From assembly GCA_021776655.1 (NCBI GenBank), contig JAJFFK010000030.1, forward strand, positions 1-64,000: 64,000 nt of DNA. The letters are read 5' to 3'. The DNA comes from Henriciella sp. (GTDB taxonomy: Bacteria > Pseudomonadota > Alphaproteobacteria > Caulobacterales > Hyphomonadaceae). The stretch's first letter is position 1. Every line of letters begins with the position of its first letter. Shown here piece by piece: positions 4,973 to 47,474 of the stretch. Position numbers and translations under genes: made by a program. Under the pieces are notes generated by a model, which saw nothing but the letters and a program-made list of their open reading frames with translations, was not told where the DNA came from and made no database searches.

Positions 4973-6806
4973 CAGTGTCGTCCTTCGGATTGAGCATTGA
5001 GAAGACACTGCCACCTGCTTCGGCAGTGCTCGCCATCGCTCTGAAACTGCTGAACATTTCCCGTCCCAAGCCAAGCGTGCTTTGGTTGGGACGGAACGGC
5101 ACAGCATCACGCGCCGCAAATGCTGCCACGTCGACTTTCAAATCCAGTTGGCCAGCATCAGGGTCAAGTACGATTACATCACCATCGCGTACCCGCGCCA
5201 AAGGCCCGCCTCGGCACGCCTCTGGTCCGACATGGATCGCCGCCGGGAACTTGCCCGACGCGCCCGACATCCGGCCATCAGTGACCAGCGCCACTTTGTA
5301 ACCCTTGTCGAGCAGCGCACCGAGCGGCGCTGACAGGGCGTGCAGCTCCGGCATGCCATTCGCGGCGGGGCCCTGGAACCGCACAACGACCACGACATCG
5401 CGGTCAAGCTCGCCCACCTGAAACGCCGCTTTGACCGCATCCTGACTGTCGAACACACGGCACGGCGCTTCAACTTTGCGCTTGTCGGGCTTAACCGCAG
5501 AGACCTTGATCACACCGCGCCCTAGTGGGCCATCAAGCATTTGCAAGCCGCCGGTTGCTGCGAACGGATCCGTGTACGGCCTGATAATGTCGAGATCCCC
5601 ACTCTCAAGCGGGGCTTGGCGCCATTTCAGCACGCCGTTGTCAAGCCACGGCTCCTGTGAATAGCTTTCCATTGCGCCATACACGCCTTGCGCCTCGCCC
5701 TGCATTAGTCCGGCATCGAGCAATTGGCGCACCACGAAACCCATACCGCCCGCCGCATGGAAATGGTTCACATCAGCCGGGCCATTTGGATAGATCCGGC
5801 ACAATAGCGGCACCACACTGCTAATCTCGGCAAAGTCTTCCAGCGTCACTTCATAACCCGCCGCAGCGGCCATGGCGGGCAAGTGTAACGCATGATTGGT
5901 CGATCCGCCGGTCGCCATCAGGCCAACCAGTCCGTTCACAAAGCTGCGCGCGTCGATCATTTCACCGAGCGCCAAAGGCTCACCCTGAATCGAATTGGTC
6001 AGCACTTGGCGCACGCAGGCGCGGGTCAGCGCTTCACGCAAATCAGTGCCGGGATTGGGGAAAGCTGCGCCAGGCAAATGCAGGCCCATGACTTCCATCA
6101 GCATCTGATTGGAATTGGCGGTGCCGTAAAACGTGCACGTGCCTTGGGAATGGTAACTCTCAGCCTCAGCGCGCATCAGCTCATCACGGCCAACATTGCC
6201 GAGTGCAAACTCTTGCCGTATGCGCTGCTTTTCCGGGTTGGGCAGGCCAGACGGCATCGGCCCGGCCGGCACCATGACATGTGGCAACCAGCCAAAGCGC
6301 AAAGCCGCGATCACCAGTCCGGGTATGATCTTGTCACAGACGCCAAGATGCAGCGCCGCATCGAATGTGTCATGGCTAAGCGCCACCGCCGACGCCATGG
6401 CAATGACATCACGTGAGAATAGCGACAGCTCCATCCCCTCCTGGCCTTGGGTGACGCCGTCGCACATCGCCGGCACGCCGCCAGCAACTTGTGCCGTGGC
6501 GCTATTTTTGCGCGCCTCGTCGCGAATGATTTCAGGATAATGCTCAAACGGGGCGTGGGCCGAGAGCATATCGTTGTAGCTGGTGACCACGCCAATATTG
6601 GGCCATTTACCGCCGAGCAGTTCGACCTTGTCCATCACCGCGCAACCCGCCGAGGCGTGGGCAAGATTACCCTCGGTCAGTTTGGCACGCGCATAGCCGC
6701 TCGGCTTGCGGGCGCCGATCATCTCCAGATAGGCCGCGCGGCTGGACTTCGAACGCGCTTCAATCCGCGCCGTGACCGCGGCGATAACCGGGTGCAGCTT
6801 GGCCAT
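4965..6806 (-). CDS. edd: Phosphogluconate dehydratase
   Basis: A 613-residue Fe-S dehydratase of the IlvD/Edd family that turns 6-phosphogluconate into KDPG. Seen are GGVPAMCDGVTQGQEGMELS, the LGVCDKIIPG cysteine motif and the ATGGSTNHALHLPA motif, all part of the cluster and active site, plus the C-terminal RMSGASGKFP stretch. Length is normal for Edd (about 600) rather than IlvD (about 560-570). The start is the ATG at 6806, whose A is shared with the zwf stop codon (TGATG); an upstream in-frame start five codons earlier is less likely. Second gene of the operon. Confidence 0.95.
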   Translation of the reverse strand: MAKLHPVIAAVTARIEARSKSSRAAYLEMIGARKPSGYARAKLTEGNLAHASAGCAVMDKVELLGGKWPNIGVVTSYNDMLSAHAPFEHYPEIIRDEARKNSATAQVAGGVPAMCDGVTQGQEGMELSLFSRDVIAMASAVALSHDTFDAALHLGVCDKIIPGLVIAALRFGWLPHVMVPAGPMPSGLPNPEKQRIRQEFALGNVGRDELMRAEAESYHSQGTCTFYGTANSNQMLMEVMGLHLPGAAFPNPGTDLREALTRACVRQVLTNSIQGEPLALGEMIDARSFVNGLVGLMATGGSTNHALHLPAMAAAAGYEVTLEDFAEISSVVPLLCRIYPNGPADVNHFHAAGGMGFVVRQLLDAGLMQGEAQGVYGAMESYSQEPWLDNGVLKWRQAPLESGDLDIIRPYTDPFAATGGLQMLDGPLGRGVIKVSAVKPDKRKVEAPCRVFDSQDAVKAAFQVGELDRDVVVVVRFQGPAANGMPELHALSAPLGALLDKGYKVALVTDGRMSGASGKFPAAIHVGPEACRGGPLARVRDGDVIVLDPDAGQLDLKVDVAAFAARDAVPFRPNQSTLGLGREMFSSFRAMASTAEAGGSVFSMLNPKDDTDV

Positions 6807-8272
6807 CAGCCCGCCTCCCACCAGTCACAATCATCGACACGCGTCATCACCTTGGCTTCGATGGGACCATCTTCGACACCCGCTTGATAGGTGCGCATGG
6901 GCACATCGGCGGCCGCCCAAGCGGCGATCAGGCCATCGACCCATTCCCAGGCCGCCTCGACCTCTTCACGGCGCATGAACAGAGACAGATTTCCGCGCAC
7001 GACATCCATTAACAAGCGCTCATAAGCGTCGGGATAGCGCACGGTGAAATTATCTTGATAAGACAGGTTCAGCGGCAAGGACTTGATCCGCAAGCCGCCG
7101 GGCCCCGGCTCCTTGATTTGCAGGTAGAGCTGCACGCCTTCGTCTGGCTGAACATTGATTACCAGCCGGTTTGACTGGGCATCCTGCGCCCCAAACATCG
7201 CGTGCGGGGTTGGCCGGAACCTGACCACAATCTCTGAATGGCGGGCCTTCATCCGCTTGCCGGTCCGCAGATAGATCGGCACTTGCGCCCAGCGCCAATT
7301 GTCCACCGCCGCCTTGATCGCCACGAAAGTTTCAGTGCCACTTTCATGACCGAGCTCGTCGAGATAGCCAGCCACCGTCTCGCCCTCGACATTGCCCGCA
7401 ACATATTGCGCGCGCACAGTATCCTCCGCGACATTTTCCGCTGTGATCGGACGCAAGGCCTGTAGCACTTTGATCTTTTCCGTGCGGATTGCATCGCCGT
7501 CGATTGAGTTTGGCGGCTCCATCATGATCAGGCAGAGGAGCTGCAGGATATGGTTCTGGACCATGTCGCGCAGCGCCCCGGAGCCATCATAATATCCAGC
7601 TCTATCGCCGACGCCGTAATGCTCGGCCACGGTGATTTGAATGTGATCAACCGCGCTCTGGTTCCACAAGGGCTCAAACAGTGAATTGGCAAAGCGCAGG
7701 ACCAGCAGGTTCTGCACCGTCTCTTTGCCGAGATAGTGATCGATCCGATAGATGCAGTCCTCGGCGAACACCGCGCCAACACCAGCATTGATCGCGCGTG
7801 CCGATTGCAGGTCGGTGCCGATCGGCTTTTCCAGCACGATACGGGCATTGCCCTCGGCCAGACCGGTTTGGCCCAAGGCTTCGCAGATCGGGACGTAGAT
7901 TTTCGGTGTGACGGCCAGATAGAAAATGCACGGACGCTTGGCGTCTTTGACCAAGGCCGCTTTCAGCCCGCCCCAATCTGCCTTCGTGTCGGTCGCGTCC
8001 ATGGTCACATAGGACAGGCATTTGGCGAACTTCTTCCATGCGGCCTGGTTGAGCTTGCCATCCGTCGCAGCGCAGCAGGCATCAAACGCAAACGTAACAA
8101 ATTCCGCATCCGTCAGCGCGGTGCGCGATACGCCGATAATGTTTGAGCCTTCGGCGATTTGACCGTCGATCCAGCGGTGATACAGCGCCGGTAACAGCTT
8201 GCGTTGCGATAGGTCACCTGTGCCACCGAAAATGACAATATCGAACGCACCGACCGGAATAAACTCTGCCAT
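6806..8272 (-). CDS. zwf: Glucose-6-phosphate 1-dehydrogenase
   Basis: A 488-residue cytosolic dehydrogenase oxidising glucose 6-phosphate to 6-phosphogluconolactone with NADP or NAD. The dinucleotide motif GGTGDLSQRKL is at residues 16-26, EKPIG at 148-152, and the active-site RIDHYLGK at 176-183. First gene of zwf-edd-glk-eda-pyk. There is no pgl (lactonase) in the operon; the SMP-30 gene at 20931 could in principle supply a lactonase but is far away. A perfect palindrome overlapping a TTGACA promoter-like element lies about 46 bases upstream and is the obvious place for control. Confidence 0.95.
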   Translation of the reverse strand: MAEFIPVGAFDIVIFGGTGDLSQRKLLPALYHRWIDGQIAEGSNIIGVSRTALTDAEFVTFAFDACCAATDGKLNQAAWKKFAKCLSYVTMDATDTKADWGGLKAALVKDAKRPCIFYLAVTPKIYVPICEALGQTGLAEGNARIVLEKPIGTDLQSARAINAGVGAVFAEDCIYRIDHYLGKETVQNLLVLRFANSLFEPLWNQSAVDHIQITVAEHYGVGDRAGYYDGSGALRDMVQNHILQLLCLIMMEPPNSIDGDAIRTEKIKVLQALRPITAENVAEDTVRAQYVAGNVEGETVAGYLDELGHESGTETFVAIKAAVDNWRWAQVPIYLRTGKRMKARHSEIVVRFRPTPHAMFGAQDAQSNRLVINVQPDEGVQLYLQIKEPGPGGLRIKSLPLNLSYQDNFTVRYPDAYERLLMDVVRGNLSLFMRREEVEAAWEWVDGLIAAWAAADVPMRTYQAGVEDGPIEAKVMTRVDDCDWWEAG

Positions 8273-8311: not shown

Positions 8312-8336
8312 CTCGCATTTTGACAGCGATGTCAAA
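8312..8336 (-). promoter_or_regulatory. Putative zwf promoter/operator palindrome
   Basis: TTTGACA-N4-TGTCAAA (8319-8336) is a perfect 7-base inverted repeat. Read on the minus strand it contains TTGACA; a weak -10-like GACATA follows after 17 bases. An operator overlapping a -35 box fits a carbohydrate-responsive repressor, but the regulator is not identifiable from sequence alone. Confidence 0.45.
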
Positions 8337-8362
8337 TAGTTGATTTTGCCCCGTACTAAGGT

Positions 8363-8557
8363 GCTCCGCACCACGCGGAGCCAAGCAGGTTCCCGATCCT
8401 CGCTGCGCTCGTCCGATGAACCAGGCTCAGGGCTGTTTTCTCATTCGGCATGTCCGGCCTCAGTGGCAAACAGCCCTGAGCCTGGTTCATGTGAGGGCCT
8501 TTAGGCCCGATACGGAACCTGCTTCGCCTCGCTGCGCCAAAGGCGCTCAGCGCGAGG
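8363..8557. repeat. Structured intergenic repeat element, copy A
   Basis: This gap between the ilvC stop and the zwf promoter is filled by nested inverted repeats. The central arms (8416-8438 and 8468-8490) are a perfect 23-base inverted repeat around a 29-base loop. Outside them AAGCAGGTTCC (8383-8393) pairs with GGAACCTGCTT (8514-8524), 11 of 11. Further hairpins flank these, including GCCTCGC..GCGAGGC around 8525-8557. The same modules in opposite order occur at 32752-32942. It sits at the 3' end of ilvC, so a terminator role is plausible. Apparent open frames inside it come from the palindrome and are not genes. Confidence 0.8.
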
Positions 8558-8571
8558 CAGAACAAGAACCC

Positions 8572-9591
8572 CTAATTCCGGCTCTTATCGACCAGGCGAT
8601 CATTCTGGGCCCAGTGCATCATGCCGCGGAGTTTTGTCCCGACCTCTTCGATCAGATGGTCATTCATGCGGGCGCGTTTGGCATGGAAACTTGGCGCACC
8701 GGCTTGGTTTTCCAGAACCCAGTTGCGCGCGAATGTGCCGTCCTGAATATCGGTCAGGATCTTCTTCATCTCGACCTTCGTGTCGCTATTGATGACGCGC
8801 GGGCCAGAGACATATTCGCCATATTCAGCGGTGTTCGAGATTGAGTAATTCATGTTGGCGATGCCGCCTTCATAGATCAGGTCAACGATCAGCTTGGTCT
8901 CGTGCAGGCATTCGAAATAGGCCATTTCCGGCGCGTAGCCAGCTTCGACCAAAGTCTCGAACCCGGCCTTGATCAGCTCGACAATGCCGCCGCAGAGTAC
9001 GGCCTGTTCACCGAACAGATCAGTTTCGGTCTCTTCCTTGAAGCTGGTTTCGATGACCCCGGCGCGGGTATTTCCGATCGCTTTGGAATAAGACAGCGCG
9101 ACGTCTTTGGCGGTGCCGGTGGCGTCCTGATGGATCGCAATCAGCCCCGGCAAGCCGAAGCCCATCTGGTATTGCGCGCGCAAGGTGTGGCCCGGCCCTT
9201 TGGGCGCAGACAGGCTGATATCGACCCCGGCTGGCGGACGGATCAGATTGTAGTGAATGTTGAAGCCATGGCCGAACATCACGTGCTGGCCGTCGCGGAT
9301 ATGTGGCTCGATCTCATTGGCCCAGAGCACAGCTTGCAACTCATCGGGAACCAAGATCATCACCACGTCGGCCCATTTGGTGGCTTCGGCCGGGGTCATC
9401 ACGGTTAGGCCCTCGGCCTCGCATTTGGCGCGGCTGGCAGAAGCTTCCTGCAAGCCGACAACGATATCGCTGACGCCCGACGCGCGCGCGTTCAACACAT
9501 GCGCATGGCCCTGAGAGCCATAGCCAATGACCGCAACCTTCTTGGCCTTGATAATGTCAATGTCGGCGTCTTGTTCGTAATAGATGTTCAT
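8572..9591 (-). CDS. ilvC: Ketol-acid reductoisomerase (NADP+), class I
   Basis: A 339-residue enzyme converting 2-acetolactate and 2-aceto-2-hydroxybutyrate to the dihydroxy acids of valine and isoleucine synthesis. The dinucleotide motif GYGSQGH is at residues 23-29; the single C-terminal knotted domain and 339-residue length make it class I. It follows ilvN by 56 bases on the same strand and may share its transcript. Product pathway partners ilvB and ilvN are immediately upstream; ilvD is not in the window. Confidence 0.96.
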
Positions 9592-32733: not shown

Positions 32734-32751
32734 GGATGTTTCCTTTATTTT

Positions 32752-32942
32752 GCCTCGCGCTAACGCCCTTCGGGCGACGCGAGGCGAAGCGGGTTCCGCG
32801 ACAGCGCTTCGCGCTGCCACATGAACCCAGCCCTGAGCCCGGTTCATGTTCGCGAAGCGAACGGAACCTGCTTGGCAACGCGTGACGCGAAGCGTCTTAG
32901 CGCGTTGCAAAACCAGAGCCTTAGCGCGAGGCAAAACTCAAG
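32752..32942. repeat. Structured intergenic repeat element, copy B
   Basis: This element fills the gap between the pheT stop and the 107-residue gene. It contains the outer pair AAGCGGGTTCC (32787-32797) and GGAACCTGCTT (32863-32873), the central ATGAACC (32821-32827) and GGTTCAT (32841-32847), and flanking hairpins such as GCCTCGCG..CGCGAGGC at 32752-32785 and GCAACGCG..CGCGTTGC near 32875-32908. Segment 32828-32847 matches copy A 8471-8490 at 19 of 20 positions, while its left outer arm resembles the reversed right arm of copy A, so the two copies are the same family in mostly opposite orientation. Both occur just past the end of a minus-strand operon. Confidence 0.8.
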
Positions 32943-32960
32943 CCGAGACAAAACCACACT

Positions 32961-35357
32961 CTACCTTCGTAACGAGCCACCCGTGGCTTTGACGACGGCC
33001 GCCACTATCTTGTCGGAAACCGCTTCGATATCCTTGTCGGTCAAGGCGTCGCCAATCGGTTGCATTGTGACTTCAATCGCGACCGATTTTTGCCCCGGCT
33101 CAATGCCTTGTCCTTGATAGACATCGAAGACATCAACCCGCGTGATCAGTTTCTTGTCAGCGCCGTGTGCGGCTATGGTGATCGCGTTTGCGGCGATATT
33201 GTCACTGACCACAAAGGCAAAATCGCGGTGGATGGGCGACAAGTCGATCTTCTGTAGCACCGGCTTGGTCTTGGTCGTTTTGGCGCGCATCAGAGGCAGG
33301 GCGTTGAGGTTAAGCTCGAAACCGTAGACCGGACCATCAACATCCAGCGCCTTTAGCACGCGTGGGTGCAGCGCGCCGAAATGGGCGATGGTCACTTTTG
33401 GCCCAAGCTTCAGACAGGCTGACTGTCCCGGATGCCAATGGGCTTGACGCGGTGCATCGATCTGAAAGCGCGTCGGCGGCTGGCCAAGCGCGGTCAAGAC
33501 TGCGAACAGGTCGGCCTTGGCGTGGTAGGGGTCATACGCGGCGGTGTTGCCTTGCCAGTGACGGGCCGCAACCGGGCGCACCAGCGCTGCAATGACTGTG
33601 CGCTGATCCTTTGGGCCGTCACCGCGATAGACCGGCCCGGCTTCAAACAGGCGCATGTCGCGCTCACCCTTATTGAAGCCTTTCTGGGCCGCAGCGGCGA
33701 GATTGGCGAGAATGCTGGGCCGCATCTGGTTTAGCTCGCTGGCCACCGGGTTGGCGATGGTCAGGGCAGGGTCGCCGCCGCCAAAGAGTTTAGCATCGGC
33801 ATGCGGCATGAAACTCCAGGTGACCGCTTCCTGGAAGCCGCGAGAGGCGAGGGTGCGCCGCGCCGTGCGGACGCGGTCTTGAATCGGTGTGGTGACGGCG
33901 CGCTTGCCGCTTTCCGGGGCTGGAAGCGAGGTTGTCGGCAGCGTGTCATAGCCTTCAAGCCGAGCGATTTCTTCAACAATATCGGCAGAATAGGCCATGT
34001 CGAAGCGCCAGCCTGGCACGGTGAGGAAGATGCTTTCGCCGGTATCTTCGATGCCGAAACCGAGCGATTTGAGGGTTTTCTTCATCGCAGCGGTCTTGAT
34101 GTCGAGCCCGGTCAGGCGCGTGACATCGCTTTTGGTGAAGACAACGCGGTCGGTTCGCTCCGGGGCTTCGCCGGCGATCTTGATCTTGGAGGCCGTGCCG
34201 CCGCCATAATCCAGGACCAGGCGCAGGGCCTGATTTATCCCATCGGCGCAGGATGACGGGTCAACTCCGCGCTCGAACCGGTAACGGGCATCGGACGTAA
34301 TCCCGGTTGTGCGACCTGTGCGGGCAGTGCGCAGTGGATCAAACCAGGCGCTTTCGATGAAAACATTCCGAGTCTCGGCGCTGACAGCGGTGGATGTGCC
34401 GCCCATCACGCCGCCGAGGCCAATCGCGCCACTGGCATCGGCGATCACGCACATGTCAGGCGTGATCTCGTAAGTTTTGCCGTCCAGCGCATCCAGCGTT
34501 TCAGCCGTACGGCCAAGCCGGGCGATGATCTTGCCGCGTAACTTGTCGGCGTCGTAAACATGCAAAGGCCGCGCGCGGTCGAGCGAGATATAGTTGGTGA
34601 TGTCGATCAGAAGTGATTTTGGTGCCAGTCCGACCGCGCGCAGGCGGGCCTGTAGCCAGTCCGGGGAGGGGCCATTTGTGACATCTTTGACCAAAGCGCC
34701 AGCAAAAACTGGGCAAGCATCCGGGGCTTCCAGTGAAATCTCAACCGGGCAGTCGAAGCTGCCACTGACTTTCTTGACCGGCTCGTCAATGAACCCGCCC
34801 GCACCTGCAGCGGCGAGATCACGAGCAATGCCTTGGACGCCAAGCCAGTCGGGACGATTTGGCGTGACTTCAAAGTCGATCACCGGATCATCAAGGCCGA
34901 GCGCTTCGGCGGCAGGCGTGCCGAGTTTCAGCGCCTCATCGAGGTCGGCAATGCCATCATGGTCATCGCCCGCTTCAAGCTCTTTGGTCGAGCACATCAT
35001 GCCGGAGCTTTCGACGCCGCGAATTTTGCGTGGTTTCTTGTCGAGCGAGAAATCCAGGCCCGGAATATACGCGCCGAGCGGGGCATAGATCGCGGTCATG
35101 CCTTTACGGGCATTCGGCGCGCCGCAGACGATCTGCTTGGTCCCGTCAACCGTATCGACCGTACAGACGCGCAGCTTGTCGGCGTCAGGATGTGGTTGGG
35201 CATCGGTAACTTTGCATACTGTAAAGGCGGCGAGACGTTCAGCCGGATTCTCGACATGCTCGACTTCCAGACCTGCTTTCAGCATCGCCGCGAGAATCTC
35301 GTCCAGCGATGCGGTGGTGGCAAGGTGGTCTTTGAGCCAGGAGAGAGGGAATTTCAT
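32961..35357 (-). CDS. pheT: Phenylalanine-tRNA ligase, beta subunit
   Basis: A 798-residue subunit of cytosolic PheRS. An N-terminal EMAP-type tRNA-binding domain follows the start (KVTDAQPHPDADKLRVCTVD around residues 48-67), then B3/4 editing and B5 domains and the C-terminal ferredoxin-like anticodon-binding domain ending in GGSLRR. The start at 35357 overlaps the pheS stop by one base (TAATG), so heterotetramer stoichiometry is coupled. Last gene of the translation cluster; copy B of the repeat follows. Confidence 0.96.
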   Translation of the reverse strand: MKFPLSWLKDHLATTASLDEILAAMLKAGLEVEHVENPAERLAAFTVCKVTDAQPHPDADKLRVCTVDTVDGTKQIVCGAPNARKGMTAIYAPLGAYIPGLDFSLDKKPRKIRGVESSGMMCSTKELEAGDDHDGIADLDEALKLGTPAAEALGLDDPVIDFEVTPNRPDWLGVQGIARDLAAAGAGGFIDEPVKKVSGSFDCPVEISLEAPDACPVFAGALVKDVTNGPSPDWLQARLRAVGLAPKSLLIDITNYISLDRARPLHVYDADKLRGKIIARLGRTAETLDALDGKTYEITPDMCVIADASGAIGLGGVMGGTSTAVSAETRNVFIESAWFDPLRTARTGRTTGITSDARYRFERGVDPSSCADGINQALRLVLDYGGGTASKIKIAGEAPERTDRVVFTKSDVTRLTGLDIKTAAMKKTLKSLGFGIEDTGESIFLTVPGWRFDMAYSADIVEEIARLEGYDTLPTTSLPAPESGKRAVTTPIQDRVRTARRTLASRGFQEAVTWSFMPHADAKLFGGGDPALTIANPVASELNQMRPSILANLAAAAQKGFNKGERDMRLFEAGPVYRGDGPKDQRTVIAALVRPVAARHWQGNTAAYDPYHAKADLFAVLTALGQPPTRFQIDAPRQAHWHPGQSACLKLGPKVTIAHFGALHPRVLKALDVDGPVYGFELNLNALPLMRAKTTKTKPVLQKIDLSPIHRDFAFVVSDNIAANAITIAAHGADKKLITRVDVFDVYQGQGIEPGQKSVAIEVTMQPIGDALTDKDIEAVSDKIVAAVVKATGGSLRR

Positions 35358-47272: not shown

Positions 47273-47351
47273 GCGTCGCCTCCAAAGCTTGGGCCAGCTT
47301 AGCTAAAAACGTCGGGAAGAAGCCGGGTGCGACCTTTAGTGGGTCATACAG

Positions 47352-47412
47352 CGCGGCCTTTTAGCGACTTGTTTAACGTGGCTGCAAGCCGGCCGGCCAA
47401 ATCACCACTTAG
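47352..47412 (-). ncRNA. SAM-II (SAM-alpha) riboswitch
   Basis: On the minus strand the leader of metA carries the conserved series GTGGTGATTTGGCCGG, CTTGCAGCCACGTTAAACAA and GTCGCTAAAAGGCCG. Stem GTGG (47408-47405) pairs with CCAC (47381-47378); the pseudoknot pairs CGGCC (47395-47391) with GGCCG (47358-47354). The match to the known SAM-II consensus is essentially complete. Binding S-adenosylmethionine should reduce metA expression. GGAGG is seven bases before the metA ATG, but the expression platform between 47352 and 47272 is unclear. Confidence 0.92.
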
Positions 47413-47474
47413 CCTATCTAAGCGAGTGAGCGCTGAGGGTCAATTTGTAACTTGCTGACTCGACAGACACGTAT

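Follow-up and report, generated by a model that had tools for sequence, protein, structure and literature searches.

The window, a 64,000-nt stretch of a Henriciella sp. contig, carries ilvC and, downstream of it on the same strand, zwf. The interval of 299 nt between the ilvC stop and the zwf start is mostly occupied by a large palindromic element (Table 1). In the initial annotation, this operon boundary was described as filled by a nested inverted repeat, with perfect inner arms of 23 nt around a 29-nt loop, outer arms of 11 nt that are also perfect, and hairpins on the flanks; the repeat was far larger than a simple terminator and recurred once in the window. Analysis of the inverted pairs revealed that both sets of arms are indeed perfect and that the outer arms lie inside a 24-nt pair with 79% complementarity. 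The nesting was refined: the palindrome is composed of two units of approximately 93 nt (A1 and A2) placed head-to-head. The inner arms correspond to the conserved heads of these units, which face each other, and each outer arm to the end of hairpin I with the linker; the flanking hairpins belong to the two units. The pair spans about 217 nt (8345-8561). These limits differ slightly from those first given (8363-8557), as do those of the second copy, copy B, which is real and extends over 32749-32911 rather than 32752-32942.

Table 1. Position of the repeat units, their parts and the neighbouring genes in the window.
Feature	Position	Strand	Evidence
Unit A2 (long form, ilvC pair)	8469-8561	+	R1 match, 81.9 bits, E 8.9e-15
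Unit A1 (long form, ilvC pair)	8345-8437	-	R1 match, 79.2 bits, E 3.6e-14
Inner arm, head of unit A1	8416-8438	+	100% complementary to 8468-8490
Inner arm, head of unit A2	8468-8490	+	Complementary to 8416-8438
Spacer of the ilvC head-to-head pair, 29 nt	8439-8467		Among the genome's four spacers of 30-31 nt (model coordinates)
Hairpin I of unit A2 (GGTTC, bulged A, apical stem, GGAACC)	8484-8519	+	Split and fold; position read from sequence
Hairpin II of unit A2 (GCCTCGC...GCGAGGC)	8526-8558	+	Split and fold; position read from sequence
Hairpin I of unit A1, different cassette type	8388-8422	-	Motif listing, split and fold
Hairpin II of unit A1, imperfect, -16.1 kcal/mol	8345-8383	-	Split and fold
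Outer 11-nt arm, hairpin I end and linker of unit A1	8383-8393	+	Inverted-pair search
Outer 11-nt arm, hairpin I end and linker of unit A2	8514-8524	-	Inverted-pair search
ilvC, ketol-acid reductoisomerase	8572-9591	-	Pfam KARI_N, KARI_C; stop 10 nt from element
zwf, glucose-6-phosphate dehydrogenase, next downstream gene	6806-8272	-	Pfam G6PD_N, G6PD_C
Copy B, first unit	32749-32842	-	R1 match, 93.5 bits
Copy B, second unit	32826-32911	+	R1 match, 89.2 bits; heads overlap 17 nt
pheT, 3' part	32961-35000	-	Pfam B3_4, B5, tRNA_synthFbeta, FDX-ACB; stop 49 nt from copy B

Allowing up to three mismatches, the 23-nt arm was found at three sites in the window (two exact, and 32825-32847 with 3 mismatches) and had no occurrence in 100 dinucleotide shuffles of the window. 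Both strands of 8345-8561 were folded, as proposed in the initial annotation, and gave -118.4 kcal/mol (z -7.7) for the plus strand and -127.3 kcal/mol (z -9.1) for the minus strand, with none of 200 shuffles as good in either case. The region matched no Rfam family at the gathering threshold, and a lax search returned only sub-threshold matches, the best of which, mir-4504, scored 25.9 bits where the cut-off is 104; a short form of the unit, described below, was likewise sub-threshold. The sole Rfam match in the window at the gathering threshold was a SAM_alpha riboswitch on the minus strand at 47341-47418 (75.9 bits). Upstream of zwf, at 8320-8335, the sequence TTGACAGCGATGTCAA has a counterpart in relatives, TTGACA.CGCTGTCA, and is perhaps a conserved promoter or operator.

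Unit anatomy, copy number and structural conservation

The unit consists, in order, of a fixed head (CAGCCCTGAGC; the fuller pattern AACAGCCCTGAGC has two variable positions), hairpin I with a bulged A, a linker, hairpin II and an A-rich end. Hairpin I is formed by GGTTC, the bulged A, a variable apical stem and GGAACC, and is followed by YGCT. Hairpin II has an outer stem of 7-9 bp and an inner stem of 4-5 bp, with a TTA or TCA bulge on the 3' side, and is followed by AAAA(C). Long-form units measure about 80-105 nt and contain both hairpins, while the short form of about 59 nt contains one. An additional hairpin of approximately 60 nt (GCCACTGCCGTGGCC...TTGATCC) was nested inside hairpin I of two units of a related genome, G022 (loci L177 and L189), and a ACACCCGTGGG insertion recurred in hairpin I of several units, for example at G000 C4:28848-28952 and C16:154348-154449.

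A first BLAST of the ilvC element against its own genome returned 126 matching stretches. Of 96 core matches, 68 were kept; 18, among them the one at 8475 in the window, were dropped for lack of a recognisable tail and 10 for failing the test of the head. Removal of duplicates and of long and odd types left 55 units, 24 of which were used as the seed of a covariance model. This model identified at least 130 units (E up to 0.001) in 63 clusters of the 2.97 Mb draft genome, a lower bound, since 150 of 2266 candidates were scored. The proposal of a dispersed family lying between genes was supported: overlap with called genes is at most 40 nt for 62 of the 63 clusters, and only cluster C4 spans one. 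Neither of the outcomes named beforehand as evidence against such a family, a repeat present only twice or arms that are not conserved, was observed; the arms are the conserved heads of these units. The suggested search of relatives was also positive, with the unit present in related genomes and in IMG/VR contigs.

Contig ends were found within 500 nt of a unit in 22 of 94 cases, compared to about 1 expected by a rough estimate, and the arrays therefore probably broke the assembly, so that the true copy number would be higher. This enrichment could be taken as a sign that the repeats are chance palindromes or an assembly artefact. Such an origin is extremely improbable, given the absence of the arm from all shuffled windows and the presence of the unit in independent genomes and phage contigs; contig ends near units are explained by the fact that repeats break assemblies.

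When 68 units were folded singly, both hairpins were present in the lowest-energy fold of 57, and the 11 exceptions include unit A1 of the window, whose minimum-energy fold differs from the standard two hairpins. Among 115 distinct units, four of which did not split into hairpins, standard pairs occupied 95.7% of 3388 base-pair cells. Change on both sides was detected in 20 of 33 pairs, with 450 double-change cells compared to 120 in shuffles. None of 500 shuffles reached any of the five covariation measures, and slid controls were 27-55% paired; the alignment of units leans towards structure because it was fitted to the covariance model. The outer stems of hairpin II differ wholesale (GCCTCGC, GTCCCGC, GCGAAGC, GCAACGC, GCAATCC), with a 3' arm that mostly matches. 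Across species, the head and hairpin I were 94.8% paired, with 126 double-change cells compared to 25 in shuffles (reached by 0 of 500), and 11 pairs showed double change, a number matched by 12 of 500 shuffles. The hairpin I stem varied between species together with its partner (GGTTC, GTCTC, GATCC, GCTCC, GACCC, GGCTC), and CAGCC, GAGC, CATG and CGG were invariant in 25 aligned copies.

The hairpin types reassort like cassettes. With 116 of 120 units classed, 50 quartets of hairpin I and hairpin II types showed all four combinations, and 15 such quartets were found for the outer and inner stems of hairpin II. Of 54 distinct forms of hairpin I in this genome, 50 folded more stably on the strand of the unit and 3 on the opposite one; in G022 all 15 of 15 favoured the strand of the unit. 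This preference was weak for hairpin II (59 to 23 of 84 here, and 15 to 10 of 25 in G022), although these counts are not independent events because the hairpin forms are related.

Neighbouring units formed 31 head-to-head pairs, 33 tandem pairs (21 --, 12 ++) and only 3 tail-to-tail pairs, all of the latter at least 494 nt apart; the excess of head-to-head over tail-to-tail pairs was significant (p 8e-7). Two of the 31 head-to-head pairs overlap, by 17 and 38 nt. The first is copy B, a pair with fused heads, and in the second a single stretch may have been matched on each of its strands. The remaining spacers include four of 30-31 nt and groups at 121-153 nt and 227-251 nt. Tandem copies lie mostly at most 2 nt apart, the rest being separated by 69-88 nt (once 203 nt) of other repeats. 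In G022, the pairs were 14 head-to-head (spacers of 12-14 or 27-33 nt), 1 tail-to-tail and 2 tandem. Recombination between copies would exchange whole hairpins and build the tandem arrays.

Position relative to genes and transcription terminators

Based on gene calls from a simple codon-score caller, not a curated annotation, 20 clusters lie between convergent genes, 16 between tandem genes and 4 between divergent genes, with 23 of the 63 at contig edges or without a called neighbour. Compared to element-free spacers of at least 30 nt taken from the same stretches and the window, spacers with an element were significantly more often convergent (19/38 versus 6/78; p 6e-7) and less often divergent (3/38 versus 26/78; p 0.003). 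The median distance from stop codon to unit was 34 nt for the 54 gene ends with a score of at least 15 and a distance of at most 250 nt. Copies would persist where harm is least, after stop codons. Units past stops would enter the mRNA as large 3' hairpins, which may shield or end the upstream transcript. REPs can stabilise the mRNA that precedes them or influence termination by Rho. A role as a 3'-UTR hairpin is perhaps indicated by this position.

Like an intrinsic terminator, the element places a GC-rich hairpin just past a stop codon; unlike one, it has no T-run directly after its hairpins and, as a pair, extends over some 217 nt. Hairpin II is not an intrinsic terminator because A, not T, comes after it, and on the other strand T precedes the hairpin. 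This geometry, together with a scan that detected neither an intrinsic terminator after ilvC in this genome nor a T-run directly after the hairpins, ruled out the element as an intrinsic terminator.

The arrangement downstream of ilvC was compared among relatives. In all 10 genus relatives with zwf at most 174 nt after ilvC, an intrinsic terminator was found about 40-55 nt past the stop. Overall, the terminator was present in 13 of 28 relatives, and in 3 of the 18 with another gene arrangement; in G013, G004 and G009, where zwf is about 0.9-1 kb from ilvC, the scan detected none after ilvC. Replacement of a terminator at ilvC is therefore likely only on the condition that the zwf arrangement is ancestral, and it is possible at this site, not a rule. 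A general replacement of terminators was rejected: intrinsic terminators were detected at 8 of the 50 ends that have an element and 9 of the 54 that do not, at 1 of 25 relative loci for the sdaA end (24 genomes, one twice) and at none of 4 for the ald end. The ilvC site is open to direct testing, since a standard terminator is present in relatives that share its gene order.

These data bear on whether the element is a selected cis-acting RNA part, retained for its function as a terminator or as a protector of mRNA 3' ends, with dispersal secondary. The units lying right after stop codons, the convergent bias, the strong folding of both strands and the ilvC site, at which the element is present and no terminator was detected in this genome while all 10 relatives with zwf close by have one, are in accordance with this explanation. 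It is nevertheless unlikely, considering the A after hairpin II, the terminator in fewer than half of the relatives at ilvC and the lack of any general terminator loss at element sites, as well as a patchy distribution and a cluster on a phage contig that immediately precedes a minor tail gene, in a run of genes sharing one orientation.

A rearrangement may be associated with one of the clusters. The genes flanking G000:C44:24684-25117, which we take to be sdaA-like and ald-like, match separate places in relatives such as G015, and the element may therefore mark a rearrangement point.

Distribution, mobility and relation to described repeats

Using the long-form model (R1), matches at E 0.001 were found in 7 of 61 genomes (69 candidates scored per genome, with stricter filters than in the search of the own genome), two of which, G008 and G032, had only matches of the short kind of 59-66 nt. 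With likewise stricter filters and 40 candidates scored per genome, the long form was detected at E 1e-6 in 5 of 105 family genomes, which all belong to the genus of the window: G022 (at least 34 copies; at least 39 at E 0.001), G006 (8), G015 (1), G003 (1) and the present genome, for which this survey gives at least 40 because only 40 candidates were scored. In four other families of the order, represented by 24 genomes, no R1 match was found among the candidates scored. An exact-motif scan of an 84,980-species collection, excluding records of or near the window's own genome, returned 13 stretches, of which 11 carry the label Henriciella, Hyphomonas or Hyphomonadaceae. Nine of these loci have the short form, with head and hairpin I only (8 by R1, and L107 by eye). 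The short-form model (R2), which also matches the first half of long units, detected copies in 50 of 105 family genomes with 48 candidates scored in each, again under the stricter filters. These include 27 genomes of genus g5, 24 of them with a single copy, as well as G035 with 35 copies and G114 with 17. The simplest history would be that the short form gained hairpin II between its GCT and its A-rich end. Related genomes with none, one, 8, about 35 and 130 copies, in short and long forms, provide a natural series in which one can ask what moves the elements, how the hairpin arms change together and what a 3' hairpin does to the mRNA.

In genus g5, the short form lies beside tRNA-Ala and at a few different gene ends: after a gene facing the end of a presumably TonB-receptor-like gene, over the stop of a gene facing the end of a presumably MscL-like gene, and directly after the end of a presumably gyrase-like gene, as judged from the C-terminal sequences. 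In a comparison covering 17 of 41 matching genomes, the gyrase-like site was filled in G104, G083, G084, G103, G088 and G032 and empty in G075 and G068, both of which share both flanks with the filled G032. It was also empty in G077, which resembles G104. A remnant was present in G105, and seven other genomes had no element and unlike flanks. No clear target-site duplication was seen in the filled and empty g5 sites, and the empty sites could be losses.

Model-confirmed copies (E < 1e-4) were also found on five IMG/VR contigs, with a weak match (E 0.009) on one further contig. Searches of the GenBank phage and PLSDB plasmid collections at E 0.01 were negative. The 35-kb contig IMGVR_UViG_3300035034_002217 contained 12 copies in the 30.9 kb examined (8 by R1 and 4 more by R2). 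Its five stretches (L114, L115, L116, L330 and L339) have no 40-mer in common, one cluster is located just 5' of the minor tail gene, among same-direction genes, and one unit lies within a called gene. This contig encodes, by PHROGs, a major head protein, a tape measure protein, a tail fibre and an integrase, and is therefore probably a temperate tailed phage. IMGVR_UViG_3300048131_000272 had 3 copies and the three other contigs one each. The orthologous filled and empty sites, together with the copies on phage contigs, suggest that the element is mobile. One strand of the unit would fold, as single-stranded DNA or RNA, and a putative mobilising enzyme would recognise the folded strand through the fixed head and the bulges.

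Among the Y1/RAYT families searched, no mobilising enzyme consistent with copy number was found. This genome has two RAYT genes (NF047646, 184 and 178 bits) at C20 81305-81742 (L190) and 91467-91895 (L201), with no unit nearby; the adjacent repeats contain GTAGGG and are apparently unrelated to the two-hairpin family. The RAYT of G022 (G022:C22:338858-339660, L199) is immediately followed by three units, with one head-to-head and one tandem pair. A RAYT was present in 11 of 29 genus genomes and in 3 of 12 further chosen family genomes. It was absent by family search from the copy-carrying G006, G035 and G114, while the RAYT-bearing G014, G026 and G028 had no R2 match among the candidates scored. 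RAYT is thus at most a candidate mover, because its presence does not follow copy number and the genome's own RAYTs have no units beside them. These same observations weaken RAYT as sole mover.

The family was also compared with described repeats, using PMC3733652, PMC12306157 and PMC2229807. Like GTAG and CGTC REPs, REPINs and BIMEs, its units are dispersed and mostly intergenic, form hairpins and head-to-head dimers, have stems that vary by subset and cluster with other repeats; high copy number, extragenic position and head-to-head dimers, as in REPs and REPINs, were all found. REPs differ in measuring 20-40 nt and in carrying a GTAG or CGTC tag where this family has its fixed head: GTAG occurs anywhere in 16 of 120 units and CGTC in 48 of 120, and neither is among the invariant columns. 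REP-like repeats are known mostly as GTAG- or CGTC-tagged, the GTAG ones with a RAYT (PMC3733652). An ordinary REP/REPIN family moved by the host RAYT transposase is quite unlikely. Such an origin would fit the two RAYT genes of this genome, the three units directly after the G022 RAYT and the short-spaced head-to-head dimers that are typical of REPs (PMC3733652). It fits less well with the GTAGGG repeats adjoining the genome's own RAYTs, the copies in RAYT-free genomes, the three RAYT-bearing genomes without a match and the absence of a fixed tag.

A described alphaproteobacterial intergenic repeat, such as the Caulobacter CIR or the rhizobial RIME, is very unlikely. CIRs, compared by their described features, share with this family an alphaproteobacterial host, an intergenic position, a similar length (about 110 bp) and two inverted-repeat hairpin arms with a linker (PMC2229807). 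The GANTC site that marks CIRs, in which it lies in a hairpin loop, is, on the other hand, rare anywhere in the units (1/120, 1/32 and 3/10), and CIR was rejected on this ground. No R1 match was found in the other four families of the order either, among the candidates scored. The Correia/NEMIS and ERIC MITEs are likewise non-autonomous, located between genes and bounded by inverted repeats, and the head-to-head dimer of one unit does have terminal inverted repeats; here, however, the arms carry separate hairpins that are exchanged as cassettes, and no clear target duplication and, among the Y1/RAYT families searched, no parent IS was found. By these tests the family was assigned to no described group, because it differs from REPs in size and tag and GANTC is rare.

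In the openly licensed literature, no description of the family was found among the matches listed. The 17-nt head string returned no paper, the 10-nt string returned none on bacterial repeats by title among the matches listed, and a search for Hyphomonadaceae with palindromes or mobile repeats gave only an off-topic match; the further matches listed concerned REPs, MITEs or CIRs in general, or unrelated subjects. The two-hairpin repeat family is apparently undescribed.

The ilvC element is probably a head-to-head dimer of a palindromic repeat of Hyphomonadaceae, dispersed and conserved in structure, and this repeat is probably a non-autonomous mobile element that is REP/REPIN-like or MITE-like. 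This explanation is supported by copy number, compensatory change, reassortment, head-to-head polarity, gene-end position, filled and empty sites and the phage-contig copies. In this large family the two hairpins are maintained through wholesale compensatory changes, no RAYT is consistently present, and copies also occur on phage contigs. A bolder version, which we consider rather unlikely, is a hairpin-cassette mobile element of a new kind, with exchangeable hairpins, a structure recognised by an enzyme, burst amplification, carriage by temperate phages and perhaps a stand-in for the terminator at ilvC. If this were true, the arms would turn over together behind a fixed head, with bursts in some Hyphomonadaceae.

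The spacers of the head-to-head pairs showed a further feature. A (T/C)GTCATCCCG palindrome is located inside 23 of the 29 spacers of positive length. These spacer palindromes begin with TTGTCATCCCGGA and end with CCCAG, as at G000:C44:24798-24919, and they resemble the TGTC variant of CGTC REPs as presented in PMC3733652.
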